Origin: a virus
DNA length: 64,000 nucleotides
Direction: 5' to 3' (one strand)
IMG/VR virus record: IMGVR_UViG_3300034418_009484
Span: 28,393-92,392 of that record
The translations under genes and the position numbers were made by a program. Each line of letters starts with the position of its first letter. Positions within the stretch are counted from its first letter, which is position 1. The notes under the pieces are model-generated. The model was not told the DNA's origin and made no database searches. It was given only the letters and a program-made list of their open reading frames with translations. Shown in pieces: positions 11,844-63,237 of this stretch.

Positions 11844-11871
11844 ATTTATTCTCCCTTTTATTTATATTCAT

Positions 11872-45234: not shown

Positions 45235-45923
45235 AGTGACTGCGCTCTCCTGCTATATCCGCTAAAGAAGGTATGTTTAGTCCAATCAAAATCAACATAT
45301 AAGAATTGTTTGTCTGACATCGTTTTAAAATGACTTTCCCACCAAGGATCTAAAAAAGCAACTGGTAAGTCCTCTTGATTTGCTTGATAGAACGAGACTT
45401 TAATTTTATGTCCATGAGCAATGAGTGCATTATTTGAATTTATAACACCATTAACTCGCGTGCTGCCGTTCCATTTTGACGTATCCCAAGCCTGTCTCAT
45501 TGTTTCAGTCTCAGAAAAAATGGTAATATCGTGAAGCATCTCACCTTCAAAAAATCCAATACCTCTTTTCTCTGCCATAGCCATTTTATCAAAGCATCTT
45601 TTAAAGATGTCTTTACAACACACAATCATGTCTGCTCTATTTTTAAATATGTGTGTAGCACCGATCTCTTTTGCTATTGCAATCCCTTCACTAACACATT
45701 GAGGATGACCTCTTCCAACCTCTGTGTTTATGATTCTATCGTGCCAAACTAAATGGTCTACATTTTCTACAGTGGAATCGTGAGGTCTTACTCCATGACC
45801 TGTTAATATTATTGCGGTATCTGGATAGTTGTGCTTATAATGAGAAACAACACGATCAACCAGATGTTGTTTATACTTCTGATTGTCTTGAATCCAAATA
45901 TGACTTAATAGAAACACGTTCAT
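45231..45923 (-). CDS. Glycosyltransferase-like protein
   Basis: 230 residues. NVFLLSHIWIQDNQ starts the fold, TAIILTGHGVRPHDST follows, and ATHIFKNRADMIVCCKDIF has the R-x-D block seen in WavE-like proteins in this locus. Distal parts are beta-rich. It might be a third WavE-type enzyme. It sits between the kinase and phosphatase genes with 4-base overlaps. Confidence 0.55.
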   Translation of the reverse strand: MNVFLLSHIWIQDNQKYKQHLVDRVVSHYKHNYPDTAIILTGHGVRPHDSTVENVDHLVWHDRIINTEVGRGHPQCVSEGIAIAKEIGATHIFKNRADMIVCCKDIFKRCFDKMAMAEKRGIGFFEGEMLHDITIFSETETMRQAWDTSKWNGSTRVNGVINSNNALIAHGHKIKVSFYQANQEDLPVAFLDPWWESHFKTMSDKQFLYVDFDWTKHTFFSGYSRRAQSL

Positions 45924-46420
45924 GAGTGCCAGTCCTGTATATTAACTAGAGGGACAGGGGTTATAAGTTCCTTCTTAATGCATATATCATAAAGTTCTGC
46001 AACAACACCATCGCCTCCATGCCTATTGATAACCTCGGTGCATATCATTTTAAGGGTTTGCGGAGAGTTGTTTGGACAGAATTTATACTTGCAACCCTCC
46101 ATTATACCCTTATCAAAAAGATCATCTCCAACAAAAGCTGTATCTTCATAAGATGTACCAAACTTCTTCATAATCCAAGGAAGCTCTTTGATTTTGTCTC
46201 TTGAAATAACAAGAGGAATAGCTCTTTTATTAGCCATTCCTGTATTGAATCTATCACCAGACACAAGAACCACAGGTACATCAGATGCCATAAACCTACG
46301 GATCGCAGTAAAATCTAAGTCGCAATATCTCTTACTAATAACTTCATGGTCTTCATTGTAAGTTTTAGTACCATCTGTCATAACTCCATCAACGTCTAAT
46401 AACAGAAGTTTAATTGCCAT
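45920..46420 (-). CDS. KdsC-like HAD phosphatase
   Basis: 166 residues, matching the short HAD class C0. KLLLLDVDGVMTDG carries the two aspartates, VPVVLVSGDRF the Thr/Ser motif (here Ser), and TAFVGDDLFDKGIMEG the last acids. These enzymes remove phosphate from sugar-8-phosphates such as KDO or related acids. It works in the sugar-activation set with the kinase, the isomerase fusion and the nucleotidyltransferases. Confidence 0.85.
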   Translation of the reverse strand: MAIKLLLLDVDGVMTDGTKTYNEDHEVISKRYCDLDFTAIRRFMASDVPVVLVSGDRFNTGMANKRAIPLVISRDKIKELPWIMKKFGTSYEDTAFVGDDLFDKGIMEGCKYKFCPNNSPQTLKMICTEVINRHGGDGVVAELYDICIKKELITPVPLVNIQDWHS

Positions 46421-47148
46421 TACCTTATTCCTCTAACATTCGGGTCAATTTCATATTCTTCAAGCATCTCCCTCATCTCTTTAGGATAGTCTGTGATGTT
46501 CCATTTACCTTTGACTATTGCGGTTGCTATATAAGGAAAAACGCAAGAGTCATAGTGGTACTTTCCACGCTTCTTATCCAAGAATTGGTCATATGTATAT
46601 AAACAATTATACCCGTTTTCTTTCGCGTATCCCTGACCAGATCCCTCTAATTGCCAAATATTTTTGTCTGGGTTCGCCTTCAGAACATTTATATAAGACT
46701 CTTTGTTCCATAAGGTAGGTTGAACAGCGAATAATAGATTAGCGGTTGTTGGAATAGTTTTTAAAAATCTGCTATTCTTATATGGTGCTTCTAAGAAATT
46801 GTCATCACACTTAATCAGCTTGATACAATCAATATCGTCTTCCATGATTGCTTCTACAGCTAGATTCATATATGTCTTACTTACTCCTTCATATAGGATC
46901 ATATCTTCATGAAGAAATAATAAATAATCAGTTGGTATCTGAGATACTGTTTCTACAAGCCTAGCCGTATAACATGCTGCATCTGTATACTTTAATACAT
47001 CATACCCTTCAAAGCTATCTTCTTGATCTAGAAGTAAAAACTTGTGGTCAAATTCATATTTGCAGTAACGCTTAAATCTGTCAAGACATGGGGCTAAACA
47101 ATCATAGTAGGAACTATGTGAGTAAATTGCTAATGACAGGTTATTCAT
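46420..47148 (-). CDS. Glycosyltransferase-like protein (GT-A type)
   Basis: 242 residues. SLAIYSHSSYYDCLAPC begins the fold and DYLLFLHEDMILYEG is the probable metal-binding E-D block after a strand; DDIDCIKLIKCDDNF follows. The later part is helical and carries WNITDYPKEMREML near the end. It resembles unassigned phage glycosyltransferases. The stop shares one base with the phosphatase gene start. Confidence 0.6.
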   Translation of the reverse strand: MNNLSLAIYSHSSYYDCLAPCLDRFKRYCKYEFDHKFLLLDQEDSFEGYDVLKYTDAACYTARLVETVSQIPTDYLLFLHEDMILYEGVSKTYMNLAVEAIMEDDIDCIKLIKCDDNFLEAPYKNSRFLKTIPTTANLLFAVQPTLWNKESYINVLKANPDKNIWQLEGSGQGYAKENGYNCLYTYDQFLDKKRGKYHYDSCVFPYIATAIVKGKWNITDYPKEMREMLEEYEIDPNVRGIR

Positions 47149-47857
47149 ATGTACACTCCAAAGGAATTTTTCTTTCCCACAGCCCTTTCATTTCCATCCA
47201 CCATTTATAAAATACCACTGAATTGGAAAGATCGCCATCATTATTTGATATTTTTTTTGCATAATTATGAAAATCAGAATCTTTATAGAACACTCCAATT
47301 AGCTCAGACCAGATTGTTGTAAATGGTTGCATGATATTCTTATCGCCATAAAACCACATATCTGCTGGTCCTTGGTCAAACATTTCCCAGTCTGCCATAT
47401 AGATTCTTGCTGGTTTAATATTTGGATTGAATGTAATACACTGAACTGGAGTTCTGTTTGGATTTCTATTAATTCTACCCGTATCAAACCTAGCCTTTAT
47501 TATAATATCGTAATCATTATTATTCATGTAGCATAGATTAAACACTTTCTGGATAGAATAAAAATGGGAGATTACAGATTGAGGTGGTCTTGGAGACTTA
47601 TCTACAATGTCCTGTAGACCTCTTGCTTCTACGATTGAATTGAAATCAATTTGAGGCTCGAAAGAAAATGCAACTGGATCATACAGATTACAAATCTTTT
47701 CTCTTAGATGTGGTTCCCAGCTATGAATATAAACATCTGGCTTAACAGCCAACTCATCATAAACCCTTTTTACAAGATGATTATAACCATCTTCACCATG
47801 AGATTTTTTATCTGTAAGGGAATCAAAATACCCATGTAAACAAAGCGCAACTTTCAT
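47141..47857 (-). CDS. Glycosyltransferase-like protein
   Basis: 238 residues. KVALCLHGYFDSLTDKKSHG opens with the strand-loop seen in capsule-type transferases, PDVYIHSWEPHLREK follows, and NDYDIIIKARFDTGRINRN has the R-x-D block. It is related in layout to the WavE-like proteins here but more distant. It overlaps the upstream methyltransferase by one base. Confidence 0.6.
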   Translation of the reverse strand: MKVALCLHGYFDSLTDKKSHGEDGYNHLVKRVYDELAVKPDVYIHSWEPHLREKICNLYDPVAFSFEPQIDFNSIVEARGLQDIVDKSPRPPQSVISHFYSIQKVFNLCYMNNNDYDIIIKARFDTGRINRNPNRTPVQCITFNPNIKPARIYMADWEMFDQGPADMWFYGDKNIMQPFTTIWSELIGVFYKDSDFHNYAKKISNNDGDLSNSVVFYKWWMEMKGLWERKIPLECTYE

Positions 47858-48540
47858 TATTTATATCCCTTTACAAAAGACCATGCTCTTCCTTCAAACT
47901 TAGAATCAGAATAAATATCTATGTCTTTATATCCTATCTCTTCTAAATCTTTTCTTAACTCTTCTGGATTATTACACCTACTATTCATTGGAAACTTGTA
48001 ATGATCTACATGATAATCTACCGCTGTTCCTAGATTTGAAACTGAGAAAGAAAACAAGCCTCCATCCTCTAGGTTATCGTACACGCTTTGGAATATCATT
48101 TTTCTTATTGTATGACTTGGAATATGCTCCAATACAACAGTTGTCATTATAAAATCATATTTAATCCTTGGTAATCTTTTACTTACAGATCTGATACTGC
48201 TGCCATCATTCTCCCAAGAATTTATTTTAGCACCATTAGCGTGCTTCTTTCTTTTTGCATACCTTTTTGCATACTCTGCATTTAATTTAGAGATGTCACA
48301 ACCATGTACATTACCCCACTCAGCTAGACTGCAAAGGTTTTTCATGTTTCTTCCGCAACCGCATCCGAAATCAAGAGCGTTCTTTCCTTTCCATTTTTCA
48401 GGATCAGACTTAACATCGCCAAGAAGGACATCCCAGTAATCTGGGTTTGGATCATGTTCTGAATGATTATCTACTGTCATTCCCTCATGATGTGTATTAA
48501 AAAATTCTTTTGCTTCTGCAACATAATCTTCAATAGTCAT
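47857..48540 (-). CDS. SAM-dependent methyltransferase
   Basis: 227 residues from the ATG preceded by GGGGA. ALDFGCGCGRNMKNL is SAM motif I, NVHGCDISKLNAEYAK motif II and IKYDFIMTTVVLEHIPSHT motifs III-IV. LEDGGLFSFSVSN completes the class I pattern. It probably methylates a sugar or a glycan end, fitting the locus. The start overlaps the end of the aminotransferase fragment closely. Confidence 0.85.
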   Translation of the reverse strand: MTIEDYVAEAKEFFNTHHEGMTVDNHSEHDPNPDYWDVLLGDVKSDPEKWKGKNALDFGCGCGRNMKNLCSLAEWGNVHGCDISKLNAEYAKRYAKRKKHANGAKINSWENDGSSIRSVSKRLPRIKYDFIMTTVVLEHIPSHTIRKMIFQSVYDNLEDGGLFSFSVSNLGTAVDYHVDHYKFPMNSRCNNPEELRKDLEEIGYKDIDIYSDSKFEGRAWSFVKGYK

Positions 48541-48541
48541 T

Positions 48542-49153
48542 TTAAAATCCCCAGTTATTATAGATTTCATATTGTGAACAGTCTGGGTAATCTTCGTTTG
48601 GCTGATCCTCTGCGTGTTTAGGATAAACAGAAAGCATCATCATTCCCCACGCTGCCAGTTCTGGTGTAATGTACGAATTGTATCCGAGGAATGGCAGAGC
48701 ATCTTCACTCATTGGAACACCCTCTGTTCTACCTGACCATCTTTTTTGTTTAAGTTTTTTATACAAAGATTTATCATCTGTTAAAATCATCCCACCTTTT
48801 CCTAGTTTCAATGGTTTTTTAATTCCAAATGATAAGCACATTAATGAACCAGAGATATACATGTCTGAAGTAAATCTTTTAGCTGAGTCATATATAGGCA
48901 ATCCTTCTAGCTTATAAAGACCAGTCCAATCATTCATATCATGATCAAACATTAATTTATGACCAGCTTGTAATATGGATTGAGGAACAGAAAGATATGT
49001 TCTTGAAGGTATCGTCACTTCTGTTGGATCAAACATTTCACATGCGATCCTGATTGCATTTGTGCAGTTATCACAAGAAACTGCATATTTAGCTCCTGTA
49101 TATTCAGCTACATTTTCTTCAAACATTCCAACGATTTTATGCGGCGGGTGCAT
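48542..49153 (-). CDS. Short DegT/DnrJ/EryC1-type aminotransferase
   Basis: 203 residues, against about 370 for a full member. The first domain is present: GMFEENVAEYTGAKYAVS, TIPSRTYLSVPQSILQAG, LPIYDSAKRFTSDM with the PLP aspartate and LSFGIKKPLKLGKGGMIL with the PLP lysine. The small C-terminal domain is missing. It may still aminate a keto sugar, may need a partner, or may be an inactive remnant. Confidence 0.75.
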   Translation of the reverse strand: MHPPHKIVGMFEENVAEYTGAKYAVSCDNCTNAIRIACEMFDPTEVTIPSRTYLSVPQSILQAGHKLMFDHDMNDWTGLYKLEGLPIYDSAKRFTSDMYISGSLMCLSFGIKKPLKLGKGGMILTDDKSLYKKLKQKRWSGRTEGVPMSEDALPFLGYNSYITPELAAWGMMMLSVYPKHAEDQPNEDYPDCSQYEIYNNWGF

Positions 49154-49824
49154 TACTTTCTCCTGAATACAAGTTCTTGGTGGGAATCTAAAGCACCTTT
49201 ATATGGAACTAGAATTTCATGCGTCTTGCAAATATGATCGACCAGTTCATGTCCTTGGTTTAATTTTACCAAGAAATTATGGATCTCCATAAAGATATAA
49301 TCTACCTCAGAAAGATCCTTGCCATAAAGGAAATCGTACTCACCACCTTCAATGTCTACCTTTAAGCAATTTATCGGACCAACCTTTTCAATGATTGATT
49401 CTAAACATACTGATTGAACTTCCTCGTCATACTCGGTAGGGTTCCAGCCATGTCCGCTTTCTTCGTATGCAAATCCAGTTACTCCAAAGTTTCCACAATC
49501 TTGATTGCCTGCTTTGTTATCATACATCCTAAGCACAAGTGTTTCGCCATCTGCCTTGCCTGCCGCTGCTCTAGTTATTTCAGCGTTACCTACTCCATAT
49601 TTCTCTATGTTTTGCTTACAGAGAAAAGCATTATTTTCAGAAGCCTCAACAGCATAAATTTTATCAAACAGTTTGTGATAGTTAATGATGAATCCTCCAA
49701 CATTTGCCCCAACATCCACACATGTTTTTGCGTGCTGAATATATCTCTGTACTTGATATGCTCTGGTGCTTGCCAGAATCTTTGCAAGCCAAGCGTCAGG
49801 ATTTTTTTGCATAGGAAGCGTCAT
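49153..49824 (-). CDS. FkbM-family methyltransferase
   Basis: 223 residues. TCVDVGANVGGFIINYHK is SAM motif I, KIYAVEASENNAFLC motif II and INCLKVDIEGGEYDFLYG the FkbM-specific late motif (K-x-D-x-E-G). FkbM enzymes O-methylate sugars or polyketides. In this locus a sugar O-methyl group on the phage glycan is the natural guess. Confidence 0.88.
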   Translation of the reverse strand: MTLPMQKNPDAWLAKILASTRAYQVQRYIQHAKTCVDVGANVGGFIINYHKLFDKIYAVEASENNAFLCKQNIEKYGVGNAEITRAAAGKADGETLVLRMYDNKAGNQDCGNFGVTGFAYEESGHGWNPTEYDEEVQSVCLESIIEKVGPINCLKVDIEGGEYDFLYGKDLSEVDYIFMEIHNFLVKLNQGHELVDHICKTHEILVPYKGALDSHQELVFRRK

Positions 49825-50192
49825 TCTATAATCTCCAATGGAATTTTTGCGGATTCAAATAGTCTTATACTCGAAATATTTTCAGCTAAAATCTGTGCAG
49901 TCGCATCTGGGTATAAATCCTTGATTGATTCTAGCATAAACTTACCAACCCCCTGACTTTGAAATTTTTTAGAAACTGCAATACGAATATCATTATCTAC
50001 CACCCCTACCCATCCCAAAGGTGATTCACCATCATGAGAAATGCATATAAAATAATTTTTAGACCATTTTTCCATAAATTTTTGGTGTTGTTCATCAGTA
50101 ATAATACTTTGACTAAAGAAAAATTCTCTGAATTGATTTCTTAATTTTAGAACAAAAGGCCAATATTTTTCTTCACATTTTACCATATACAT
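49821..50192 (-). CDS. GNAT acetyltransferase
   Basis: 123 residues. WVGVVDNDIRIAVSKKFQ contains the central strand and KKFQSQGVGKFMLESIKD the acetyl-CoA loop (Q-x-x-G-x-G/A). ILAENISSIRLFESAKI is the last helix-strand. It would transfer acetyl groups to an amino sugar or a protein. Being next to an aminotransferase fragment supports N-acetylation of an amino sugar. Confidence 0.8.
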   Translation of the reverse strand: MYMVKCEEKYWPFVLKLRNQFREFFFSQSIITDEQHQKFMEKWSKNYFICISHDGESPLGWVGVVDNDIRIAVSKKFQSQGVGKFMLESIKDLYPDATAQILAENISSIRLFESAKIPLEIIE

Positions 50193-50986
50193 ATTGGATA
50201 CGTTATCCTCCTAGAATTAATTTGATTCATATAATTTCTTCTGCTTCCAATTCCAGGCATAAATGGATTTAAACTTGAGCCAATATCCATATATGTATTT
50301 TCAGGATATTTGCTATAAAGTCTATGAATTGCCATATTACTAAGACTTGAAGCGGCGAACAAAAACAAATGATTTTTAATATCATTTTGTCCAACCCATT
50401 CTTCAATAGTATTAATTAAATCATAATCATTTACTATGCAATTTTTACCAATCCTAAAATCTTTTATAATATTAAATCCTAATTCTGAAAGCGAAGCATT
50501 TTTGTTAACTATCATTACAATTTTTTTTGTTTTAAATACAGGAGTCATTTCATTAATGAATCTAAAGTAGTTTGCATTTATCATAAGGTTAGACCAACTC
50601 AGATGCTCTTGGTCTATATCATCATACCCTTGCTTGATTAGATCCATCTGCCAATCAAAGTAATTCTGACCAATACAGCACCTACAGCTAATTCCTTTGA
50701 TGTAATTGTGCTGACGATGAACGAAGGAATCAACTAACTTCTGCCTATAAAACTCATGCTCATTAGGATCAAAGTGCTTATGGTCATCCTCCGCATAAGC
50801 CATCCTATGAACCTGTCCCTTTACCTTACAATGATCTGCTGCCATGACTATCTCTTGACCTTGCATCATAAATACTTCGCCGTCAGAGAATCTTGCAAAT
50901 GAAAAGTTTTCACCTTCAATAAGCATATTATTTATAGATGTGAAATCACCTTCAAAGGTTTTATTAGGAGGCATTGTTAGCGACAT
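50180..50986 (-). CDS. GT-D-like glycosyltransferase (DUF1792-like)
   Basis: 268 residues. FSFARFSDGEVFMMQGQEI resembles the R-x-G-D-G-E motif of DUF1792/GT-D glucosyltransferases, and LFLFAASSLSNMAIHRLYSK plus TYMDIGSSLNPF match the end of that fold. Segment TKKIVMIVNKNASLSELG fits in between. These enzymes add glucose to adhesin glycans. Assignment is by motif resemblance and could be wrong. Confidence 0.6.
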   Translation of the reverse strand: MSLTMPPNKTFEGDFTSINNMLIEGENFSFARFSDGEVFMMQGQEIVMAADHCKVKGQVHRMAYAEDDHKHFDPNEHEFYRQKLVDSFVHRQHNYIKGISCRCCIGQNYFDWQMDLIKQGYDDIDQEHLSWSNLMINANYFRFINEMTPVFKTKKIVMIVNKNASLSELGFNIIKDFRIGKNCIVNDYDLINTIEEWVGQNDIKNHLFLFAASSLSNMAIHRLYSKYPENTYMDIGSSLNPFMPGIGSRRNYMNQINSRRITYPICIW

Positions 50987-51945
50987 AGTAATCTCTTTAC
51001 AACTTTCATATTTACTGAATAGTCTCTATCAACTCCATGTTCTTTGAAATCATCGACAAGCTCTTTGATTCCTGTCTCAAGCTGAGTTCTATGAATGATT
51101 CCTAAATCACGATACATTTTTTCTGAGTCTGTTCTCCAAGATCTTGCGTCATTAACATCTTCAACGATTACCTCAGTTCCATACATTTTTTCAAATATTT
51201 TAGCATATTCTAAAACCGTCATAGCTTCTTTAGAAATATTATATACCTGATTGAAAGATCTTTCGTCAAATAAAATATCCATAATAGCATTACTAATATC
51301 TTTTACATGCAATGATGGTCTACTTTGAGTTCCTCCATGAACAACTATTGGCTCATTGTTTGCAACTTTATCTGCAAAAATATTTAACATAAGATCAAGT
51401 CTTTGCCTTGGAGATCTGCCGTATAGTGTTGCAGGTCTTAATATCGTTATATCATACCCACCTCTTTTCATTAGATATTGTAGATAATGGTCTATTTCCA
51501 TTTTGATTACGGCATATTGAGTTATTGGTTCTGGATATGTATCTTCTCTTACTGGTTTTTCCTTTACTCCATATACACTTCCAGAAGAAACTTGTATAAG
51601 TCTTTTAATATATAGTCTTTCACAACTTTGAATTACATTCATGACCCCGTTGTAACTAACATCATGTGTAAATTTAGGATCTAAGTCTGAACTAATATCA
51701 TTTGATATACATGCTAAATTAATTACTGCATCAGAACCTATTAAATGATTATGAAGATTCTCTGAATCTCTTATGTCACATTCTATTAGATGTACTTTAC
51801 TTGCATCTTTAAATAATTTTAGATAATCTTCTCTGTTTTTCCAAAACCAAAAAGTATCTATTACTCTTACGTCGTATTGTTCTGATAATATAGGGCATAG
51901 TACAGACCCCACATATCCTGCGCCTCCAATTACAGTAATTGTCAT
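50977..51945 (-). CDS. NAD-dependent sugar epimerase/dehydratase (extended SDR)
   Basis: 322 residues. TITVIGGAGYVGSVLCPIL is the glycine-rich NAD loop, KRLIQVSSGSVYGV the Ser-containing catalytic strand, and QYAVIKMEIDHYLQYL the Y-x-x-x-K pair. ILRPATLYGRSPRQRLD and GGTQSRPSLHVKDISNAI are typical of NDP-sugar epimerases and 4,6-dehydratases. Overlaps with both neighbours show coupling to WecB and the GT-D-like gene. Confidence 0.88.
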   Translation of the reverse strand: MTITVIGGAGYVGSVLCPILSEQYDVRVIDTFWFWKNREDYLKLFKDASKVHLIECDIRDSENLHNHLIGSDAVINLACISNDISSDLDPKFTHDVSYNGVMNVIQSCERLYIKRLIQVSSGSVYGVKEKPVREDTYPEPITQYAVIKMEIDHYLQYLMKRGGYDITILRPATLYGRSPRQRLDLMLNIFADKVANNEPIVVHGGTQSRPSLHVKDISNAIMDILFDERSFNQVYNISKEAMTVLEYAKIFEKMYGTEVIVEDVNDARSWRTDSEKMYRDLGIIHRTQLETGIKELVDDFKEHGVDRDYSVNMKVVKRLLCR

Positions 51946-52955
51946 TTAATAATACCTTTCAATATATTCAATATTTTCTCACCAGATTTGCCATCACCAT
52001 ATGGGCATTCTAAACTATCTTCAATATTATAGTCTTTAAGCATATGGAATAGATCTGTCAATTCTCTTGGTCTTTTACATAGCCAAGAAAATTCTCCAAC
52101 TCCTTCTTGTCTTTCTGTTTTATTTCGGCACACAATACATGGCTTTCTAAAGAATGCAGACTCTTCTTGAATACCACCGCTATCTGTTATAACAAGTTTT
52201 GAGCTTTTAAGTATTTTTAATAAATAATGATGAGGAAGAGGATCTACTACTTCTACATGATTTAAAATATCTTTATATTTTAACACATTCGGGTTTGGAT
52301 GTATAGGCAAAACCCATTTAAATTCAGGATATTCCTCTGCTAACAAATCAATAGCTTTAAACCACTTACGGATTTGTTCATGGTTTTCTCTTCTATGTAA
52401 GGTACAGAGAATATGTATCTCTTCGTTTACTGGATGATTTACAAGGTTGTCTAGAGCAGTATTTCCAACTACATATATTTCTGAATTATGATGCTTGCCT
52501 TCATTAGTTAGATTTTTCATAGCGAATTTAGTTGGACAAAGATGAATGTCTGCCATTCCACTAACTGCCTGCCTGTTAAATTCTTCTGGATATGGCTGTT
52601 TATTATCCCAAGTTCTCAAACCTGCCTCTAGGTGAATTACTGGTATCTGTCTATGAAACGCTGCTAAAGCTACAGCAAAAACAGTTGTTGTATCACCCTG
52701 AACCATAACATGAGTAGCTCCATACATGTCAGAAGGAATCTGTTTTAGAATTGATGCAACGATAGAGTCAAGCCTCATGTCGCATATATCTTCTATTTCA
52801 AGTGTGATATGCGTAAACTCGCGTGCCACTTCATCTACTAGACTACTATGCTGTCCAGTAAATAATAGTTTATATGGAATTTTTCCTGCTATGGCTTGTA
52901 CCACAGGTTTGATTTTTATCCATTCTGGCCTGGTTCCAAAAGCTATTAATAGCAT
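51942..52955 (-). CDS. wecB: UDP-GlcNAc 2-epimerase
   Basis: 337 residues. IAFGTRPEWIKIKPVVQA, LFTGQHSSLVDEV, HVMVQGDTTTVFAVALA, VIHLEAGLRTWDNKQPYPE and FNRQAVSGMADIHLCPT match the non-hydrolysing WecB/MnaA pattern, and VITDSGGIQEESAF gives the UDP-binding loop. It makes UDP-ManNAc from UDP-GlcNAc, providing an amino-sugar precursor that the acetyltransferase, aminotransferase and epimerases around it could use. Confidence 0.92.
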   Translation of the reverse strand: MLLIAFGTRPEWIKIKPVVQAIAGKIPYKLLFTGQHSSLVDEVAREFTHITLEIEDICDMRLDSIVASILKQIPSDMYGATHVMVQGDTTTVFAVALAAFHRQIPVIHLEAGLRTWDNKQPYPEEFNRQAVSGMADIHLCPTKFAMKNLTNEGKHHNSEIYVVGNTALDNLVNHPVNEEIHILCTLHRRENHEQIRKWFKAIDLLAEEYPEFKWVLPIHPNPNVLKYKDILNHVEVVDPLPHHYLLKILKSSKLVITDSGGIQEESAFFRKPCIVCRNKTERQEGVGEFSWLCKRPRELTDLFHMLKDYNIEDSLECPYGDGKSGEKILNILKGIIK

Positions 52956-52980
52956 TAATTCACCTTTATGTGATATATAT

Positions 52981-53691
52981 TTATTTAAAATTAACCCAAT
53001 CTATCTTATACCAAAAAACATTTTCATATTCTGGATGTTTAAATTTTGAATTTATACGATACTTATTTGATTTAAGACAATCTTTTATAGGTTCACCATT
53101 ATCAAACTTTTTAATTAATTTTTCATAAAGTAAACTATTTTCAATAGTTTTAGTAGATGTTTTTAAAAAATGTCTATAGTAATCTCCATTTTCTCCTAAA
53201 TCAATACCAAATGCTTGTCTATAAATAAAATCAGCGATTTTAGAGTGTCTTACTTTATAAACAAAAAATGCATCCTCGTATCCATACGCTTCAAATTGAT
53301 TGCATAAACCATCTAATCTTTCAAATAACTTTGGTTTTATTGAAAAAAAATCATATCTCAATGGCAGGTTTGAATTAATTTTTTTTTCTTCTGTACCATA
53401 ATCGAAAACAAAAAATTTACATTCATTTTCAAAACAATTTAACAAATCAAAAAAATTAGGAACTCTATCTACAGGACAAAAAATAAAAGTATCTTTTTCA
53501 CTATATGGTTTTAATATATCAAAACCAGAATTTATCAGCCTAGAATAATTAAAATCTTTATCATTATCTTGTTCGATTATTGCGTACTCATAAGGTATGT
53601 TGTAATCTCTAAGTTTTCTTAAAAAAACAGGAAGTGTTAAATCAAGCTCTTCTTTTCTGTCTCTATACGGAACAATTATTTTATACATCAA
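52981..53691 (-). CDS. GT7-like glycosyltransferase (beta-1,4-galactosyltransferase type)
   Basis: 236 residues. KIIVPYRDRKEELDLTLP is the hallmark opening of GT7 enzymes, YAIIEQDNDKDFNYSRLIN the next block, and DTFIFCPVDRVPNF stands where D-V-D occurs, with the first aspartate replaced by proline. FEAYGYEDAFFVYKVR corresponds to the acceptor/E-D region. It is a paralog of another protein in this locus. Confidence 0.7.
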   Translation of the reverse strand: MMYKIIVPYRDRKEELDLTLPVFLRKLRDYNIPYEYAIIEQDNDKDFNYSRLINSGFDILKPYSEKDTFIFCPVDRVPNFFDLLNCFENECKFFVFDYGTEEKKINSNLPLRYDFFSIKPKLFERLDGLCNQFEAYGYEDAFFVYKVRHSKIADFIYRQAFGIDLGENGDYYRHFLKTSTKTIENSLLYEKLIKKFDNGEPIKDCLKSNKYRINSKFKHPEYENVFWYKIDWVNFK

Positions 53692-54802
53692 AATATATCC
53701 TATATTTTAAACCTTTACTGTCTGATTTTTCAATTAATTCTTTGGAGAAATTCCAAGCCAATATTACGCAGTTTCCAAAATATTTTTTTGATTCTGATAA
53801 ATCTTTTATAGGATATTTACTGTATGGGCAATATAACCCCGTCTTATTTGGATTTTCATCAAATATATATTTTAGGCTTGAGTTGCAATATCCTAGAAAT
53901 GTCATACCTTTAGCAGCAGAACCGATACCATATTCTACATTGTCTTTTATGAATTTAGACCTTATTGTTTCACATTTTATTTTATATTGTTTGTAAAAAT
54001 CTTTATCAAAAAGACATTGTTCAAAGTCAAGCGGTTCAACACAAGATTCTTTTTTAGATATTTCAAAAAGATAGCTTTTCCCATGAATATCCTCTACAGA
54101 GATATTGTTGATATATAAACCATATCTTTTCAATAATTCTTTCATTGAATTTGTATTAAAGTAGGATATGTGTTCGTGGTATATGGTATCGAATTGACCA
54201 TGCTGGAACATTTTACATTGAGAAGTCTGTATAAGGATTACAGAATCTTCTTTCATATGGATTAAACAATTCTTTAGAAAACCATCTAGGTCTGACGTAT
54301 GCGCAAAAACATTTTGAGCTACGATAAGATCAAACTTTTTATTAAAAGTCGCGTGCTGCCAGTAATTATTGACTACTCCATGTTCAGATATTTTTGAAAC
54401 TATGTTCTCGGCGGGATCAACGCCATATGTTTTCCATCCATACTTCTTAAAGGCATCTAGTTGTGACCCGTCATTACATGCAATATCTAAAACTGTTTTT
54501 TTATCTGGAAATTTATCTGTAAACCTTTTAGCAAAACTATTAAAGAATTTTTTTAGAGTATTGCTAGTCCCACTAACATAACAATAATTTTTAAACAATA
54601 TGTCTGGATTAACAGCAACACTTAATTGTGAATGAAAACATTTTATACAAGTATTTAAAACCAATGGGTATTTATCCCACTCTTGACTTGGGCTAGACTT
54701 GTATTCGTTAGCTAGAGGTAGCTCGCCTAAGTTTAATGTTTCATTTAAATGGCTTGAATTGCAGCAAATGCAACGGTTTAATTTTTTCACTGAATTTTTC
54801 AT
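53681..54802 (-). CDS. C-methyltransferase (zinc-binding, TylCIII/NovU-like)
   Basis: 373 residues. The N-terminal zinc-binding region has CICCNSSHLNETLNLGELP and CIKCFHSQLS. The SAM domain shows TVLDIACNDGSQLDAFK, KTYGVDPAENIVSK and FDLIVAQNVFAHTSDL. The C-terminal third (GIGSAAKGMTFLGYC) is the conserved Methyltransf_14-type end. Such enzymes add a C-methyl group to NDP-4-keto sugars, making branched deoxysugars. Confidence 0.9.
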   Translation of the reverse strand: MKNSVKKLNRCICCNSSHLNETLNLGELPLANEYKSSPSQEWDKYPLVLNTCIKCFHSQLSVAVNPDILFKNYCYVSGTSNTLKKFFNSFAKRFTDKFPDKKTVLDIACNDGSQLDAFKKYGWKTYGVDPAENIVSKISEHGVVNNYWQHATFNKKFDLIVAQNVFAHTSDLDGFLKNCLIHMKEDSVILIQTSQCKMFQHGQFDTIYHEHISYFNTNSMKELLKRYGLYINNISVEDIHGKSYLFEISKKESCVEPLDFEQCLFDKDFYKQYKIKCETIRSKFIKDNVEYGIGSAAKGMTFLGYCNSSLKYIFDENPNKTGLYCPYSKYPIKDLSESKKYFGNCVILAWNFSKELIEKSDSKGLKYRIYFDV

Positions 54803-55439
54803 GATATTGATTATAGTATTTAAAATCTTTAGTATTTAAAAGTTTATTATATATAGATTCATCTATACATAAAGGTTCTTTATTTTCACTGACATTCTTT
54901 TTTAAATCTATTTTTTCTAATCCTCCTGCTGAAATATCCACTATAAAATCAAATTCTTTTATTAAATTAGGACTTATTAAAAAATCAGTTCCACATGAAT
55001 AATCAAGCCATTTAGATATACTTTCTGAATTTTTATATATGCCGTGATGGACTTTACACCATTTATCTTTATCTTTTTTTAAAGGTAAATTTCCCCAAAA
55101 GTAATTAAAAAAACTACATCTCAAATGTATAGGATTCCTAACTGTTACCAACAATGTATACCCATTTTTCTTAATTTTTTTTAAGATTTCTATACATTGT
55201 TCTTCACAATTATTATTATTATGATGGGATGTAATTCTGGAATAATTATTTTCAACTGGAAATAAATTTTCAGAACTTATTAATTTTGGTTGCTTTTCTT
55301 TTAAAATTTCTAAACATTTTTCATAATCATTAGCAAAATATATATTTCTATCTATATCTTCTATCTGTTCATGCAATACAGACTTTACCGTGGAGCCGCC
55401 TGTTTTTGGAATATGAAAATAAAATATTTTTTTAATCAT
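54741..55439 (-). CDS. Sulfotransferase-family protein (second copy)
   Basis: 232 residues. IFYFHIPKTGGSTVKSVL is the PAPS loop and YTLLVTVRNPIHLRCSFF the 3'-phosphate-binding motif. The rest is helical with several cysteines (NCEEQCIEILKK). With the enzyme near 43 kb it suggests two sulfation steps. It overlaps the downstream methyltransferase gene by 62 bases. Confidence 0.78.
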   Translation of the reverse strand: MIKKIFYFHIPKTGGSTVKSVLHEQIEDIDRNIYFANDYEKCLEILKEKQPKLISSENLFPVENNYSRITSHHNNNNCEEQCIEILKKIKKNGYTLLVTVRNPIHLRCSFFNYFWGNLPLKKDKDKWCKVHHGIYKNSESISKWLDYSCGTDFLISPNLIKEFDFIVDISAGGLEKIDLKKNVSENKEPLCIDESIYNKLLNTKDFKYYNQYHEKFSEKIKPLHLLQFKPFK

Positions 55440-56131
55440 TTATATGCTATAATATAATGTTTTATTACAGGAGAATACTCAATAACTCTATCACATCTAT
55501 TTACTAATTCTTTTATGCCGTGTGTATTAGGTGCAGAAAACCCTTCGTTAATCATTATTTCTGTTTTAATAAATTCTTTCGATGTTAATTTTCTTATGTT
55601 TTTGTTTTTTGTAACATAGTTAGTTTGGTCTTGATAAGCAATATCACCATTACCAATGTATATTTTTTTTACATTATCAAAATTTTTATTGAAACTTTTA
55701 ATGTATTTAAGGAACAATCTATCATCGCCGCTCCACCCCTCACACCTATTGTCTAACCCATTTGAAAAGCGAAAGACCGATCCTAATGTCGAAAAAAAAT
55801 CATACCCCTCGTTAATGTCTATAACGCTCTGGTTGCTTTTACTTTCTGTAAAAATTTTCATTTTGTCATTCGGATTACACTCTAGACAAGGCTGTTTAAA
55901 ATATATGTCTACAGGACTAAAAACAAACGTATCCTCATCTTTTGGATTAAGAATCCTAAAACCTGCGTTAATAGCCTTAGATAAAGAAAACAAATTACCA
56001 TCGTCCTCTTGTTCTACTATTGCAATCTCATAATTGTTAGTATAATAGTAATTTAAGAATGGAATATTATACAAAAGGTATAGTCTTAGACTAATTTCTC
56101 TATCTCTATACGGAACAACTATTTTTAACAC
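55436..56131 (-). CDS. GT7-like glycosyltransferase (second copy)
   Basis: 231 residues. KIVVPYRDREISLRLYLL, YEIAIVEQEDDGNLFSLS, AINAGFRILNPKDEDTFVFS and PVDIYFKQP match the paralog in order, again with PVD in place of DVD. GWSGDDRLFLKYI resembles the G-W-G-G/x-E-D acceptor site. The pair probably act on sequential or alternative acceptor sugars. Overlaps with both neighbours. Confidence 0.7.
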   Translation of the reverse strand: MLKIVVPYRDREISLRLYLLYNIPFLNYYYTNNYEIAIVEQEDDGNLFSLSKAINAGFRILNPKDEDTFVFSPVDIYFKQPCLECNPNDKMKIFTESKSNQSVIDINEGYDFFSTLGSVFRFSNGLDNRCEGWSGDDRLFLKYIKSFNKNFDNVKKIYIGNGDIAYQDQTNYVTKNKNIRKLTSKEFIKTEIMINEGFSAPNTHGIKELVNRCDRVIEYSPVIKHYIIAYK

Positions 56132-57014
56132 TTAAAGCCTCTAAAATTGATTTAAAAGTTTCATGAAATTTAAAATCAAAAGTATCTTCAAACTTACTAC
56201 AGTCTAGCTTGAAATTGTAGGGAGAGTTCGATCTTTCATCTTCTAACTTATCAACAGATACGACAGGTTTATAAGTAAATAGTGAAACTTGTTTTGCAAT
56301 ATCATTCATATTTGTATTAAAAGAAGAAAGATTATATATCCCAGGATATTTTGGATTTTTTATAATTGATTCAACAGCCCTGCATAAATCTTTTATTCCT
56401 AATATTCCTCTACTTTTTTCTCTCCCACATAAAAATATTTCATTATTGTTTATAGCTGAATTATACATAGCGTTAATAACTGTATTTCTAATATTTTTAG
56501 AATATCCACATACGGTTCCGAATCTCAAGCCGTAATAATTAACATTAGAAAACTTTATAATATTATCTATTGTATTTTTTGCAAAATCATAAGCATTTAC
56601 TACGGAGGTAGTATCACATTCTTCTGAACACATTTCTCCATATGTGTTTCCGTAAACACTTGCACTACTAGCATAAATAAAGCATTGATCTTTTCTTAAT
56701 TTAAAAACTAGATCAATAAATTTTTTAATGTTATTATCAATAGAAGAAAAAGGATATTCAACACATTTCGCTACTGTAGAATGCCCTGCAAGCAATATAA
56801 CCGAATCAAACGATCTAATAAAATCTTTATCTAATTCTTCATAGTCAACAAGAATATTATTTTCATTTACATAATTTCCTCTCGCTTCTATATCGCAAGT
56901 TTCTACCTCATAAGTATCTTTTAAATGCTCATACAATACACTTCCAATATATCCAGTTCCACCAATTATTAAAACTTTTTTAGGTTTTTCTATTAACATA
57001 AGTTTTCCATCCAA
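56106..57014 (-). CDS. NAD-dependent sugar epimerase/dehydratase (second copy)
   Basis: 302 residues, or about five fewer if an internal ATG is used. KVLIIGGTGYIGSVLYEHL is the NAD loop, CFIYASSASVYGNTYGE the Ser strand and NAYDFAKNTIDNIIKF the Y-x-x-x-K pair. FGTVCGYSKNIRNTVIN and the ILGIKDLCRAVESII region complete the sugar-SDR pattern. It supplies a modified nucleotide sugar to the glycosyltransferases. Overlaps neighbours by 26-35 bases. Confidence 0.86.
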   Translation of the reverse strand: MDGKLMLIEKPKKVLIIGGTGYIGSVLYEHLKDTYEVETCDIEARGNYVNENNILVDYEELDKDFIRSFDSVILLAGHSTVAKCVEYPFSSIDNNIKKFIDLVFKLRKDQCFIYASSASVYGNTYGEMCSEECDTTSVVNAYDFAKNTIDNIIKFSNVNYYGLRFGTVCGYSKNIRNTVINAMYNSAINNNEIFLCGREKSRGILGIKDLCRAVESIIKNPKYPGIYNLSSFNTNMNDIAKQVSLFTYKPVVSVDKLEDERSNSPYNFKLDCSKFEDTFDFKFHETFKSILEALSVKNSCSV

Positions 57015-57744
57015 GTCCTACAAGTCTTTGCACACATTCATTTCTTTCTTTGTAAAATTGTTTATGATTCCTCTGGGCAGAACTAGCAACCTCATCAACC
57101 CCTAGCTGTTGCCCATACAATGAACTCCAAAGGTCTTTATTATCAACGGGGTGCGAAGGAACATATGTTTTAATATTACCGTGTATTTGACACATCGCAG
57201 AGAAGTGCATATCTTCCCCATTTGCCCACATAGGCTTTTCCATCCACATATATTTAATGTAGCTAGAAGGGAAGAACCAAGCATGACCCACTAGATCAAC
57301 TTCAACTGTATTCTGATTGCCAGAAACCCATCCGTATCGCGTATTTGGTTGATAAGACGTTTCTTGATTCAGGCAGACTCCAACACCTCCGTAGATTCCA
57401 TTACACTCATTATAAGAGTCTAGACAGTTCTCAAACCATCTGGGGCCAGGAATAGTGTCATCATCGAAAATAGCAGTAAACTCTGTATCTACTAAACAAG
57501 CAGCAGCAAACCTTCCACAATACTTCCAGTTGTAATTAGATTCAATTACTCTTATTCCTGCTTGCTGTGCATAAAGATTAAATGAAGTCCAATCAAAATT
57601 GTTTTGATCTGGGTGATAATTTTTCCATACCCAAATTTCTTCTGGAGGAACTGTTTGGTTTATTAAAGCCTTTATTTGTGGTTGTAGATTTTGAGGCCGT
57701 CTATAACAATTAAGTATAGCTGTTATCATATAACCGTTTCCCAA
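56980..57744 (-). CDS. Glycosyltransferase (GT-A, GT2/GT64-like)
   Basis: 254 residues. TAILNCYRRPQNLQPQIK opens the fold, FTAIFDDDTIPGPRWFEN gives the D-D-D metal site, and VGHAWFFPSSYIKYMW plus WANGEDMHFSAMC supply the acceptor and E-D catalytic region. The D-D-D with G-E-D pairing fits inverting or GT64-like enzymes. Coupled by overlap to the GT4 gene upstream of it. Confidence 0.82.
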   Translation of the reverse strand: MGNGYMITAILNCYRRPQNLQPQIKALINQTVPPEEIWVWKNYHPDQNNFDWTSFNLYAQQAGIRVIESNYNWKYCGRFAAACLVDTEFTAIFDDDTIPGPRWFENCLDSYNECNGIYGGVGVCLNQETSYQPNTRYGWVSGNQNTVEVDLVGHAWFFPSSYIKYMWMEKPMWANGEDMHFSAMCQIHGNIKTYVPSHPVDNKDLWSSLYGQQLGVDEVASSAQRNHKQFYKERNECVQRLVGLGWKTYVNRKT

Positions 57745-58583
57745 AAAAGTTGTGGAGAGTTCTTACATCTATTTTTTACTTCTTCTATACCATATTGTTT
57801 AATATCATGAACCGCTCCTATATTTTCAGAACAATTCAATTTTATTCCACAAAATGCTGCCTCTGCTATTGTTCTACAGAATGGCTCAAAACCTACTGGG
57901 TGATAGAAAAGCTCTGTATATTTGTTAAATAATTCTGGCATTTCTGAATGAGATTTTTTACCAATAAACTCTGCATTTTTGAACGAATGAATTATATCTT
58001 CAAACGACTGATGAGAAGTCCATCCTGCTATAACAAATTGTCTGGATGGATTGTTTATGATTTGTGAAAATAAATTTTGCGCACCTTTTAGGGTATGAAT
58101 GAACCCAGCGTACAAAGTTTTATCTTCACGCTCTAGATTATAATTGTGAAATCTAGAGTCATCAATAGGAGAGGGGACAATATCTATTTTATCAAAACTA
58201 ATTGGATAACTATATTGTCTTACATATTCTTCGTAATGATATTTAGATAAGAATATTCTTTTTTTAGCAGAACCATGTAGCATAACTCTTTGATCTGGAG
58301 ACAGATACGAACTAGAGTCATGTTCAAATTTTACATGATTTTTATGAGAAGTAATAAAATCCCATATACTTTTTACATCTGGTCTGGATAATATATTGTG
58401 CATATATCCAGTAACTATCATATCATATTGTTTATTTACAACTGCATCTAGAGGAGAGTTAAAAATAAAATGATCTATTTCATATCCTAAACTTTTGCCA
58501 AAGTTAATTATAAAATCATCTGTTCTCTGAGCGCCTCCAGAATTTTCATTTACTGAAAAATCTGACATCCACAATACATTCAT
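57726..58583 (-). CDS. GT4-like glycosyltransferase
   Basis: 285 residues. NVLWMSDFSVNENSGGAQR is the acceptor-side start, RIFLSKYHYEEYVRQY and DIVPSPIDDSRFHNY the linker area, and KTLYAGFIHTLKGAQNLF the donor loop. VGFEPFCRTIAEAAFCGIK holds the E-x7-E motif (E..E). It is the first gene of the glycan locus in transcription order and may start the glycan chain. Confidence 0.8.
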   Translation of the reverse strand: MNVLWMSDFSVNENSGGAQRTDDFIINFGKSLGYEIDHFIFNSPLDAVVNKQYDMIVTGYMHNILSRPDVKSIWDFITSHKNHVKFEHDSSSYLSPDQRVMLHGSAKKRIFLSKYHYEEYVRQYSYPISFDKIDIVPSPIDDSRFHNYNLEREDKTLYAGFIHTLKGAQNLFSQIINNPSRQFVIAGWTSHQSFEDIIHSFKNAEFIGKKSHSEMPELFNKYTELFYHPVGFEPFCRTIAEAAFCGIKLNCSENIGAVHDIKQYGIEEVKNRCKNSPQLFWETVI

Positions 58584-59904: not shown

Positions 59905-60031
59905 CTGTAGATTCTAGCACCGCAAGTCGGTTTACTTCATCAATTTCTATGATTTCATATTGACGACCATGTAACTCAACTATGTCTCCTATGTCCCAAG
60001 AATCCCTGATTTCAGCAACAACTACGCTCAT
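59894..60031 (-). CDS. Small phage protein (45 residues)
   Basis: A short frame from ATG to TAG encodes a compact beta-rich peptide (RDSWDIGDIVELHGRQYEII) with an acidic end. It overlaps the RuvB stop by 4 bases and the next gene by 11 bases, the same coupling as its neighbours, which supports translation. No family known. Confidence 0.6.
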   Translation of the reverse strand: MSVVVAEIRDSWDIGDIVELHGRQYEIIEIDEVNRLAVLESTDDD

Positions 60032-60930
60032 AAAGCTATTCTCCCTTTAGACGACTTACAAATCAAATTCAACCTAAGCAAAAACGGTTCTATAACAGAC
60101 TCAATAGTTTCTTGGTCTATATTTAAAGCAGAAGAAATTGTTGATATTCCTACCGGCTTATTTACTTTCTTTAAGAATTTTAAATATCTTCTGTCATTTT
60201 CAGTTGATCCATCCATACCAATTCCTCTCATGGACAGAGAATCCCTCAGATCGCTCTGTGTGATCCATTCAAGGTCTTTCGCGATGCCGTAGTCTCTTAC
60301 CCATTCAAGCAAGGCATTTGCAATTCTAGGAGTTCCTCTGCTTGCTTTGGCTAGACTGATTATTGATTCATCACTTATGGGTATCGACATGTTTTTGCAA
60401 TTAGTTTTAATTATTTTTGCAATAGAAATATAGTCGTATAGCGAGAGACTAAATTTCAATTTAAACCTATCTCTAAAGGGTTGAGGCAGCTTTCCTGCCT
60501 CTGTAGTTGCACCAATCAATGTAAATTTTGGTAGGTCAATGGATAGTATTTCCTTTTCCCCTTTTTCATTTTCAGAAGGAATATCAAATCTAAAATCTTC
60601 CAAAATAGTATATAAGGATTCTGTAGTCTTTTTACTAAGTCTATGCACTTCGTCTATAAATAATACTTCGTTTTCCTTGATATTAGTTATAACAGGTAAT
60701 ATATCTTTGAATGTTTTTATATTACCTCCAAGTATTTGTTTTGTTTTAACTCCAAGCTCATTACCAATAGCTACGCTAAATGTAGTTTTACCCAAGCCAG
60801 GAGGTGCGTCAATCAAAACATGACCTAACGCATCTCTCCTAGTTTTTGCAGACTTTATAGCTATTGATAATGCTTCTTTAACTTTGTCTTGTCCAATAAT
60901 ATCATTAAAATACTTTGGTCTTGTCGTCAT
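60028..60930 (-). CDS. ruvB: RuvB-like Holliday-junction branch-migration ATPase
   Basis: 300 residues. RPKYFNDIIGQDKVKEAL, APPGLGKTTFSVAIG (Walker A), LFIDEVHRLSKKTTESLY (Walker B), LIGATTEAGKLPQPFRDRF (sensor and arginine finger) and SRGTPRIANALLEWVRDYG follow the RuvB order; VIEPFLLRLNLICKSSKGR is the winged-helix end. RuvB pumps DNA through a Holliday junction. A RuvA-like tail occurs in the gene just upstream. Confidence 0.92.
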   Translation of the reverse strand: MTTRPKYFNDIIGQDKVKEALSIAIKSAKTRRDALGHVLIDAPPGLGKTTFSVAIGNELGVKTKQILGGNIKTFKDILPVITNIKENEVLFIDEVHRLSKKTTESLYTILEDFRFDIPSENEKGEKEILSIDLPKFTLIGATTEAGKLPQPFRDRFKLKFSLSLYDYISIAKIIKTNCKNMSIPISDESIISLAKASRGTPRIANALLEWVRDYGIAKDLEWITQSDLRDSLSMRGIGMDGSTENDRRYLKFLKKVNKPVGISTISSALNIDQETIESVIEPFLLRLNLICKSSKGRIAL

Positions 60931-61252
60931 TTTTCCCTTTGTTTTGCAAAGCTAATAGTATTATTTCTTTTTTGGTCTTTCCTTTAATATCTATGGATTT
61001 TACCATAGATTTTGAATCTTCCTTAGTCCATCCTAAAGAAACCAGAGATGATATAGCCTGCTTGACATTATTATCTTTAACAGTATCTTTTTGTGAAACC
61101 AATGGTTCGATAATTAATTCTTCCCAGCAAGAATCACATTTATGATTAAATATCTCTTTAGGAATGTCCTGTAATTGAAATGTTAAAAAACAATTAGGGC
61201 ATTTGTAATTTATAATTACAGAATGTATTTTTGCCTTTAACCTTTTTCTCAT
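60905..61252 (-). CDS. Zinc-ribbon protein with RuvA domain III-like tail
   Basis: 115 residues. CPNC (18/21) and CDSC (39/42) form a zinc ribbon in the first half. Residues 63-103 (AISSLVSLGWTKEDSKSMV, then IILLALQNK) resemble RuvA domain III, which contacts RuvB: compare the L-V-x-L-G-[YW]-x-x-x-[DE] pattern. The junction-binding RuvA domains are absent. It overlaps the RuvB gene by 26 bases, so it may be a minimal RuvB loader. This function is inference. Confidence 0.6.
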   Translation of the reverse strand: MRKRLKAKIHSVIINYKCPNCFLTFQLQDIPKEIFNHKCDSCWEELIIEPLVSQKDTVKDNNVKQAISSLVSLGWTKEDSKSMVKSIDIKGKTKKEIILLALQNKGKNDDKTKVF

Positions 61253-61632
61253 TAATCGTCATCCCAAGACGAGATGCCTTCGTCTACAGGCTCAGGCTCA
61301 ACGACAGGCTCAGGCTCAACGACAGGCTCAGGCTCAACGACAGGCTCAGGCTCAACGACAGGCTCAGGCTCAACATTAAACATTCCTTCAACCTCAAGAT
61401 ATTTTCCAGAAAATACTACACCAGAGCATTCTTTCGCTTCTGCAACATACGATTCCTTGTCATATTCTCCGTAAACAACGTCAACTCTAATTTCTTTTCC
61501 TGCCGTAACTGGAATTTCCCATACCTTATCCTTATCTTCATTAAGAAGATTTATATTAAAATACGGACTTGCGATTAGCATGACATTTATATTCTTTTCA
61601 CGATCATCTTTTTTAACTGTTAGTTTATACAT
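61252..61632 (-). CDS. Protein with PEPVVE tandem repeats
   Basis: 126 residues. The N-terminal two thirds is a beta-rich domain (KLTVKKDDREKNINVMLIAS, KEIRVDVVYGEYDKESYV), and the tail is a P-E-P-V-V-E repeat, an extended acidic stalk. Such stalks usually space domains or contact partners. It overlaps its neighbours by one base. Function unknown. Confidence 0.65.
   Translation of the reverse strand: MYKLTVKKDDREKNINVMLIASPYFNINLLNEDKDKVWEIPVTAGKEIRVDVVYGEYDKESYVAEAKECSGVVFSGKYLEVEGMFNVEPEPVVEPEPVVEPEPVVEPEPVVEPEPVDEGISSWDDD
61287..61376 (+). repeat. 18-base tandem repeat, five copies
   Basis: Five head-to-tail copies of an 18-base unit (CAGGCTCAGGCTCAACGA on the plus strand; the last copy differs near its end). 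It lies in frame inside the coding sequence and encodes the P-E-P-V-V-E stalk. Copy number may vary between related genomes through slippage. Confidence 0.92.
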
Positions 61633-61901: not shown

Positions 61902-62657
61902 CTAATTGTCTCCGTTATTTACAATTTCACGAAGTACATTTTTTGTATTCTTAATGCTCGATGAAACTATATTGGGAGATACATTTAATTTATTTGCAAC
62001 TATTCTGATTTTATTAGATTTATTAAGATGTTTTATCCAAGACATGAAAATATCTTTATCAGTTTTATCAACGATATTATCCTCAACTAAATTGATTATG
62101 TCTGCCAAACAACCTTTTATTTCTGCTTTTGTTTCTCTAAGAATTTTATTTTCATTAAAAGATAAAGATGTATAGTCCACTCTTTTTGTTTCCATAATTT
62201 CCATAAGAATTTTTATTCTCCTTTCTTTAAGTCCTGTCAGCTTGGATATTTCACTAATGTCATTTGAATCGACTCTTTTGATTTTGTTCATGTGACCAAC
62301 AGCATGTTTTGTAATATCATATCTAGTTTTTACATTATACTTTGAATCTTTAATCATGTCAATCAAATAATTGGTAACGTATCTAGTGGCTATTGTTGTG
62401 ATACTGGATTTGTTTATGTCCCAATTATCCACAGCTTTTATTAAAGCTAAGTTTCCCTGTTGAATAAAATCTTCTAAGTCAATATGCTTATTATTAAAGT
62501 GAAATTTATTTGCTATATTGTATACTAATGGTAAACATGAGTTTATAATTTCATTCCTAGATGAAATATCTCCACTTCTCATATCCTCATACAATTTAAC
62601 TTGATCTTCTTTTTCAAGAGCTATGTAAATTTCAGATATTTGTTTGTTATAAATCAT
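61902..62657 (-). CDS. Sigma-70-family sigma factor
   Basis: 251 residues from the ATG preceded by GGGAG. Region 2 is DFIQQGNLALIKAVDNWD with TTIATRYVTNYLIDMIK; region 3 has DISEISKLTGLKERRIKIL; region 4 ends in NKIRIVANKLNVSPNIVSS. Regions 2, 3 and 4 are all present, more complete than the short sigma near 9 kb. It probably controls one temporal class of phage promoters. Whether late or middle genes are its target is unknown. Confidence 0.85.
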   Translation of the reverse strand: MIYNKQISEIYIALEKEDQVKLYEDMRSGDISSRNEIINSCLPLVYNIANKFHFNNKHIDLEDFIQQGNLALIKAVDNWDINKSSITTIATRYVTNYLIDMIKDSKYNVKTRYDITKHAVGHMNKIKRVDSNDISEISKLTGLKERRIKILMEIMETKRVDYTSLSFNENKILRETKAEIKGCLADIINLVEDNIVDKTDKDIFMSWIKHLNKSNKIRIVANKLNVSPNIVSSSIKNTKNVLREIVNNGDN

Positions 62658-62658
62658 T

Positions 62659-63237
62659 CTATCTCCCATTAATAGTGTCAAATCTTAAATCATTAATAAT
62701 ATCTTCCACACTCTTGCTTTGAGGCAAGGTTAGTCCTCTCCTTGTTTTTGTAGGATGAAATTCTCTATCTTTAGCTTCGGGATCAATCTGTGCATGTGTC
62801 TCCCTGTATATCTTAGAGCGAATTATTCTACGGATCTTATTATCATTATATTTTATCTCATAATATCCAGTTTTCCAGTTTTTTTTGGGTAGAAATTTAC
62901 TATCAACATAGTCGCCTCTGTATTCGCTTGCCCACATCCATTGTTTTTTTCTTTCTAAAGTCTCAAGGGTTTGTTCTATTTGCCTTCTTGTTGTTTCCCA
63001 TTTTTTTTCTCCTTCTTTTGTTTTTTTGTAGGCATCATCCATCATGATCCATTTTTCTACATGGAATTTGCAATCAACAGAGTGCCAGTCCCACAGTATA
63101 ATCTGGGACCATACTTGAACACCCCATTCGTTATGATAATGATTTACTTCGATCATGTCAAATGTATCGACGATTAAATTCTCATCACCTAATCTAAATA
63201 GAGATAAAAATAAAATCAATCCCATGAATAGATCCAT
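62659..63237 (-). CDS. Unknown protein with N-terminal signal-like segment
   Basis: 192 residues. MDLFMGLILFLSLFR is a short hydrophobic start that may act as signal or anchor. The rest has HNEWGVQVWSQIILWDWH, then a helical EKKWETTRRQIEQTLETLER, and a basic tail. WDWHSVDCKFHVEKW is rich in aromatics and histidines. No family recognised. Its stop lies one base before the sigma factor start. Confidence 0.55.
   Translation of the reverse strand: MDLFMGLILFLSLFRLGDENLIVDTFDMIEVNHYHNEWGVQVWSQIILWDWHSVDCKFHVEKWIMMDDAYKKTKEGEKKWETTRRQIEQTLETLERKKQWMWASEYRGDYVDSKFLPKKNWKTGYYEIKYNDNKIRRIIRSKIYRETHAQIDPEAKDREFHPTKTRRGLTLPQSKSVEDIINDLRFDTINGR

Follow-up and report, generated by a model that had tools for sequence, protein, structure and literature searches.

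A putative phage RuvB partner that joins a zinc ribbon to a tail resembling RuvA domain III

RuvB is classically recruited to Holliday junctions by RuvA, and the locus described here raises the question of how RuvB might be brought to DNA in a phage which encodes it next to a small protein without the junction-binding domains of RuvA. The window, meaning the whole stretch of 64,000 nucleotides that was analysed, comes from an uncultivated virus record of 92,392 bases, in which it covers positions 28393-92392. A sequence-only reading of this DNA had pointed to a small gene overlapping the RuvB gene, whose product was described as a four-cysteine ribbon followed by a segment close to RuvA domain III. 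Both open reading frames are present as described (Table 1), and the four cysteines of the partner are found as C18-x2-C21 and C39-x2-C42. The gene directly upstream of the partner (61252-61632, minus strand) encodes a tandem EPVVEPEPVV repeat near its end and then an acidic tail, and its stop overlaps the start of the partner gene.

Table 1. Coordinates in the window of the partner gene, the RuvB gene and their principal elements
Feature	Position	Strand	Length	Basis
RuvB partner gene (family 'A': zinc ribbon + RuvA domain III)	60905..61252	minus	115 aa	
Phage RuvB, RuvB_N + AAA lid + RuvB_C winged helix	60028..60930	minus	300 aa	
Stretch shared by the partner and RuvB genes, in different frames	60905..60930	minus	26 nt	
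Four-stranded zinc ribbon, residues 14-48	61109..61213	minus		AlphaFold strands + column conservation
RuvA domain III-like three-helix tail, ~residues 58-106	60935..61081	minus		Pfam RuvA_C, PDB profile, Foldseek
RuvB Walker A, APPGLGKTT, residues 42-50	60781..60807	minus		sequence
RuvB N-domain beta-hairpin, ~residues 115-133	60532..60588	minus		alignments to E. coli L135-L152 hairpin

Sequence profiles and a predicted structure agree in identifying the C-terminal tail of the partner, with its motif ISSLVSLGWTKEDSKSMV at residues 67-84, as a homologue of RuvA domain III, which bears out the likeness first noticed by eye. In the profile comparison that had been proposed as a check, RuvA_C (PF07499) was the top Pfam match of the partner among 24,736 models (E=9.7e-5), its 23.2 bits falling just short of the cut-off of 24; in a six-frame search of the genome it scored 24.7 bits, above the cut-off. 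UBA, IBR, zf-UBR and further weak Pfam matches were restricted to few members each, and all of them were weaker than RuvA_C. A family profile built from 55 relatives and run against all PDB sequences gave as best matches two chains of T. thermophilus RuvA, 1ixs_A (E=3.6e-5) and 1ixr_A (E=2.5e-4), both from RuvA-RuvB crystal entries; the list continues with other RuvAs, with one designed protein and an OpuCA chain among them. A clearly better fit to UBA-like or other three-helix domains, named beforehand as the outcome that would speak against this identity, was not found: the tail-only profile run against the PDB gave E=0.001 for RuvA domain III and E=0.085 for the UBA protein 2g3q, and no UBA domain appeared among the top 50 Foldseek matches of the partner model. 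This AlphaFold2 model (mean pLDDT 87) predicts a four-stranded ribbon at residues 14-48 and three helices at residues 54-112. When it was searched against 350,542 PDB chains all top ten matches were RuvA, with a Foldseek probability of 0.99-1.00 for nine of them and 0.75 for the remaining one; the corresponding E-values exceed 0.05 because domain III is very small. Superposition of the model on domain III of 7pbl_G and 7pbm_H, taken from RuvAB cryo-EM structures, gave 0.7-0.8 Å over 43-46 residues.

The likeness extends to the positions through which RuvA contacts RuvB. Partner residues I67, L70, L73 and G74 align with V164, L167, L170 and G171 of E. coli RuvA, in which either of the mutations L167A and L170A eliminates RuvB activity in vivo and leaves junction binding unaffected (PMC2628435). 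Among 128 full-length relatives of the partner, the position of L167 carries Leu in 95% and that of L170 always Tyr, Leu or Phe; the glycine equivalent to G171 (the G of LG) is invariant. The tail motif is not a chance resemblance, since RuvA_C is the top Pfam match, relatives of the partner recur beside RuvB in 156 loci, and close relatives compared with one another have a median dN/dS of 0.146.

The Holliday-junction-binding domains of RuvA are indeed missing, as the sequence-only reading had it. RuvA_N (the OB-fold domain I, PF01330) was absent by Pfam from the partner protein, from the whole 92-kb window record and from 46 related records (up to 244 kb, ~3.3 Mb), and RuvC was absent from the same 46 records, which may be fragments, so that such an absence is weak in a single record and not weak across all of them. 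As positive controls, 14 bacterial and archaeal genomes were included, with RuvA_N detected in 10 and RuvC in 8. The helix-hairpin-helix domain II with its acidic pin gave no Pfam match in the partner, and there is no room for it, because residues 1-57 are filled by the ribbon and a short linker. The partner is not a RuvA, because searches for two of the domains that define RuvA did not find them. Both proteins have domain III in common, by sequence, by predicted fold and by the leucine positions that contact RuvB, and both are encoded directly upstream of ruvB in one operon; the partner, in contrast, has a zinc ribbon and no detected domain I, and is 115-184 aa long instead of ~200. On the basis of its sequence and model, the partner most likely works like the RuvB-binding half of RuvA.

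The ribbon that occupies the N-terminal part is strictly kept, with C18, C21, C39 and C42 invariant in all 128 full-length relatives. Averaged over the family, its net charge is +6.1, with a positive value in 97% of the members; the ribbon of the window is weakly basic (+2) and without the HW and KP motifs of the family. Zn_ribbon_4 and Zn_ribbon_5 (PF13717 and PF13719) also combine two CxxC-type knuckles with four strands, but the partner family matches them weakly (best E=0.043 and 0.006, respectively) and has Y-x-C, HW and K-P motifs of its own.

The other member of the pair is a full-length homologue of bacterial RuvB, with Walker A, DNA-contact wing and all three domains (RuvB_N E=3.5e-50, AAA_lid_4 3.5e-14, RuvB_C 1e-18). 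Residues 3-299 align with solved RuvBs (E=4e-65), and K292, K295 and R297 in the DNA-contact wing align with R314, R317 and R319 of P. aeruginosa RuvB, each of which is required for branch migration (PMC10071043). The phage copies differ from bacterial RuvB in forming a separate clade, drawn from records without RuvA_N or RuvC. In a quick tree the window RuvB, on a long branch, groups with the RuvBs of related phages and apart from the cellular ones (SH-aLRT 92), and the window record has only scattered genes in common with the related phages bearing the pair; this grouping despite divergence indicates that the pair has persisted across divergent phages.

In cellular RuvB, a hairpin of the N-domain (L135-L152 in E. 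coli) binds RuvA domain III (PMC2628435). In most related phages this hairpin is ~4 residues shorter than in cellular RuvB and is without the GxGxARS turn, and in the window RuvB it has the cellular length. Judging from these alignments, an altered hairpin might restrict the interface to the two phage proteins. Another phage RuvB-like protein, L015:9503-10426 (minus strand; EDFLIDGLSISPFTLIS), has an N-domain hairpin that is almost gone; its gene adjoins a second AAA+ gene, which is clamp-loader-like, and no RuvA_C was detected in that record.

The same pair is present in many other phages, where the sequence-only reading had suggested looking for it. Scanning of uncultivated viral contigs with each window protein singly gave no match because both proteins are divergent, and this was solved by degenerate patterns; viral contigs were thus scanned with a degenerate RuvB Walker A, with the ribbon motif, which is independent of RuvB, and with the phage-RuvB motif LSQPFYDRF. 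A pattern requiring APPGLGKTT returned a single match, which was unrelated. At least 156 partner-RuvB pairs were found in uncultivated viral contigs, all with both genes on the same strand and a gap of -46 to +6 nt, and the two genes overlap in 129 of the 156 pairs listed, these counts being matches listed and not frequencies. Before the third scan, RuvB directly followed the partner in 137 of the 137 listed partner genes with downstream DNA, and in the ribbon-seeded scan the pair was found in 67 of the 74 new loci listed, the other 7 ending at a contig or locus edge. In L097 the partner and RuvB form an in-frame readthrough fusion.

The partner had no match in the cultured-phage collection or in plasmids. 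Among the RuvB matches in the phage collection, the three annotated neighbourhoods inspected look like bacterial chromosome. The scan of bacterial genomes, made with one peptide pattern of limited recall, yielded one match, on a contig of 11 kb whose genes are ordered as in these phages and which looks like a mis-binned phage. PHROGs contains no clear family for the partner, and the pair is a widespread, unannotated phage family. Literature searches in open-licence papers found no description of a partner made of a ribbon and RuvA domain III, in line with the earlier statement that no such loader is known to have been described.

We propose that the gene product is a reduced RuvA, whose tail docks on the phage's own RuvB and whose basic ribbon replaces the DNA-binding half of RuvA as a tether or loader, and we assign to this reading a probability of roughly 0.55. 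The C-terminal three-helix domain would dock on the N-domain β-hairpin of RuvB, the product of the next gene, and the basic zinc ribbon would stand in for the junction-binding domains I and II, holding RuvB at a substrate that would most likely be DNA in recombination or replication of the virus. Translocation of double-stranded DNA by the RuvB ring would then drive branch migration or the remodelling of forks, with no RuvA tetramer involved. Beside the observed exclusive linkage to RuvB, the conservation of the pair and the absence of RuvA_N and RuvC in the searched records, sequence and model argue strongly for the docking of the tail on RuvB; DNA binding by the ribbon, and a loading of RuvB by it, are further steps which we only infer. 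In this locus the domain with which RuvA docks RuvB occurs apart from the junction-binding part and is fused to a zinc ribbon, and this suggests an undescribed, reduced mode of using RuvB on viral DNA. If confirmed, it would mean that the domain which directs RuvB to its target is exchangeable; furthermore, it would offer a natural reduced RuvA for probing the effect of domain III alone on the motor and a likely function for a widespread protein family unnamed in Pfam and PHROGs.

The gene order in most relatives is B - partner - RuvB, where B is encoded directly upstream in the same operon and is a conserved protein of ~140 aa with 10 invariant residues and the motif RMVSNILxxLVNKG...NDFVFW. 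An example is L043:4210-4635; in most related phages B lies upstream of the partner or of RuvB. We could not assign B to a known factor, as it has no PHROG or Pfam family and its model shows a weak MarR/winged-helix likeness. Zinc ribbons often bind proteins, and this conserved neighbour, as well as the sigma-70-like gene lying few genes upstream of the partner in the window, would suit an adapter whose tail docks RuvB and whose ribbon recruits it by binding the replisome, SSB, protein B or RNA polymerase. We consider such a protein target unlikely, since the ribbon is usually strongly basic and the window record has no B gene, which means that B is not a universal target. The window encodes two sigma-70-like proteins, the one just mentioned (61902-62681, minus strand) and another at 9060-9521 (minus strand).

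A different possibility is that RuvB has taken on a new task in the phage, for instance in replication initiation, late transcription or packaging, the pair not acting on Holliday junctions. The absence of the junction-binding domains of RuvA and of RuvC from the searched records would be in agreement with such a role, as would the hairpin of most relatives, which differs from that of cellular RuvB, the proximity of the window pair to a sigma factor, and the genes upstream in related phages, which look rIIA-, rIIB- and primase-like on reading of their sequences. However, the AAA+ core, the lid, the winged helix and the DNA-contact wing are all kept, and nucleases of the Endonuclease VII type, a phage junction-resolvase family, are frequent in related genomes (22 of 37 related records), which makes a role away from junctions quite improbable. 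These nucleases would fit a processing of junctions; the window record itself yielded no member of the family.

In the tree, related phages that have B and RuvB and lack the partner occur at scattered places, and at least four changes of label fall on starred branches. The tail-like domain was not detected by profile in 12 partner-less records, and the same profile found 6 of 6 controls; one of the 12 contains a weak tail match, in a frame of 32 aa that a stop interrupts. The scattered partner-less RuvBs and the 12 tail-less records therefore indicate that the partner can be lost and is not always needed. An origin of this loss in a changed RuvB hairpin is unsupported, the hairpins being alike with and without the partner. 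In a direct coupling analysis of 128 pairs (Neff 67) the top pairs fell on variable positions, and at this depth the hairpin enrichment was 14 observed against 10.3 expected. A similarly improbable explanation is that the partner is a regulator or decoy with no loading role, which, carrying solely the RuvB-binding part of RuvA and being dispensable in some lineages, could compete with host RuvA for host or phage RuvB and so shut down the RuvAB of the host or adjust the ATPase of the phage RuvB. Two features speak against it: its gene is strictly linked 1:1 in an operon with that of the phage RuvB, to which a decoy would bind too, and the four-cysteine ribbon, which a decoy would not need, is invariant.

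The reading of the partner as a reduced RuvA can be compared with a different protein ending in RuvA_C, found at L267:1483-2142 and L268:1492-2181 (both minus strand; E=2e-11 and 1e-5). These are the only two records found, of 63 and 427 kb, RuvB-bearing and without RuvA_N. As in the partner, RuvA_C here follows an N-terminal domain that is not from RuvA, and the phage encodes RuvB, but the N-terminal part (~150 aa, no Pfam match) is unrelated to that of the partner and the gene is distant from ruvB (9-13 kb). It is a candidate for a second RuvA-less RuvB partner and, as the tail stands on another N-terminus, domain III may be a portable RuvB-recruiting tag, a suggestion drawn from two sequences. 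Extending this, we tentatively put forward, at somewhat below even odds, a new class of RuvA-independent RuvB loaders, made of a zinc ribbon and domain III and serving a large group of uncultured phages, with another DNA target, such as forks or single-strand/double-strand junctions; domain III would serve as the portable tag.

Some further genes of the window deserve mention. Two separate genes within 9535-13749 (minus strand) encode DNA polymerase III alpha, one with the PHP and NTPase domain (11872-13749) and one with the finger and HHH part (9535-11157), and a 3'-5' exonuclease-like gene (11154-11843) lies between the halves. A DUF1501 protein (E=1e-54) is encoded at 35544-36773 (minus strand) and is also present in 3 of the 46 related records; DUF1501 is abundant in planctomycetes, which hints at a planctomycete host and does not show it. 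Finally, by reading of the translations, ~39573-58583 (minus strand) contains a run of glycosyltransferase, nucleotidyltransferase, epimerase and sulfotransferase-like genes, a sugar-modification block which appears unusually large for a phage.
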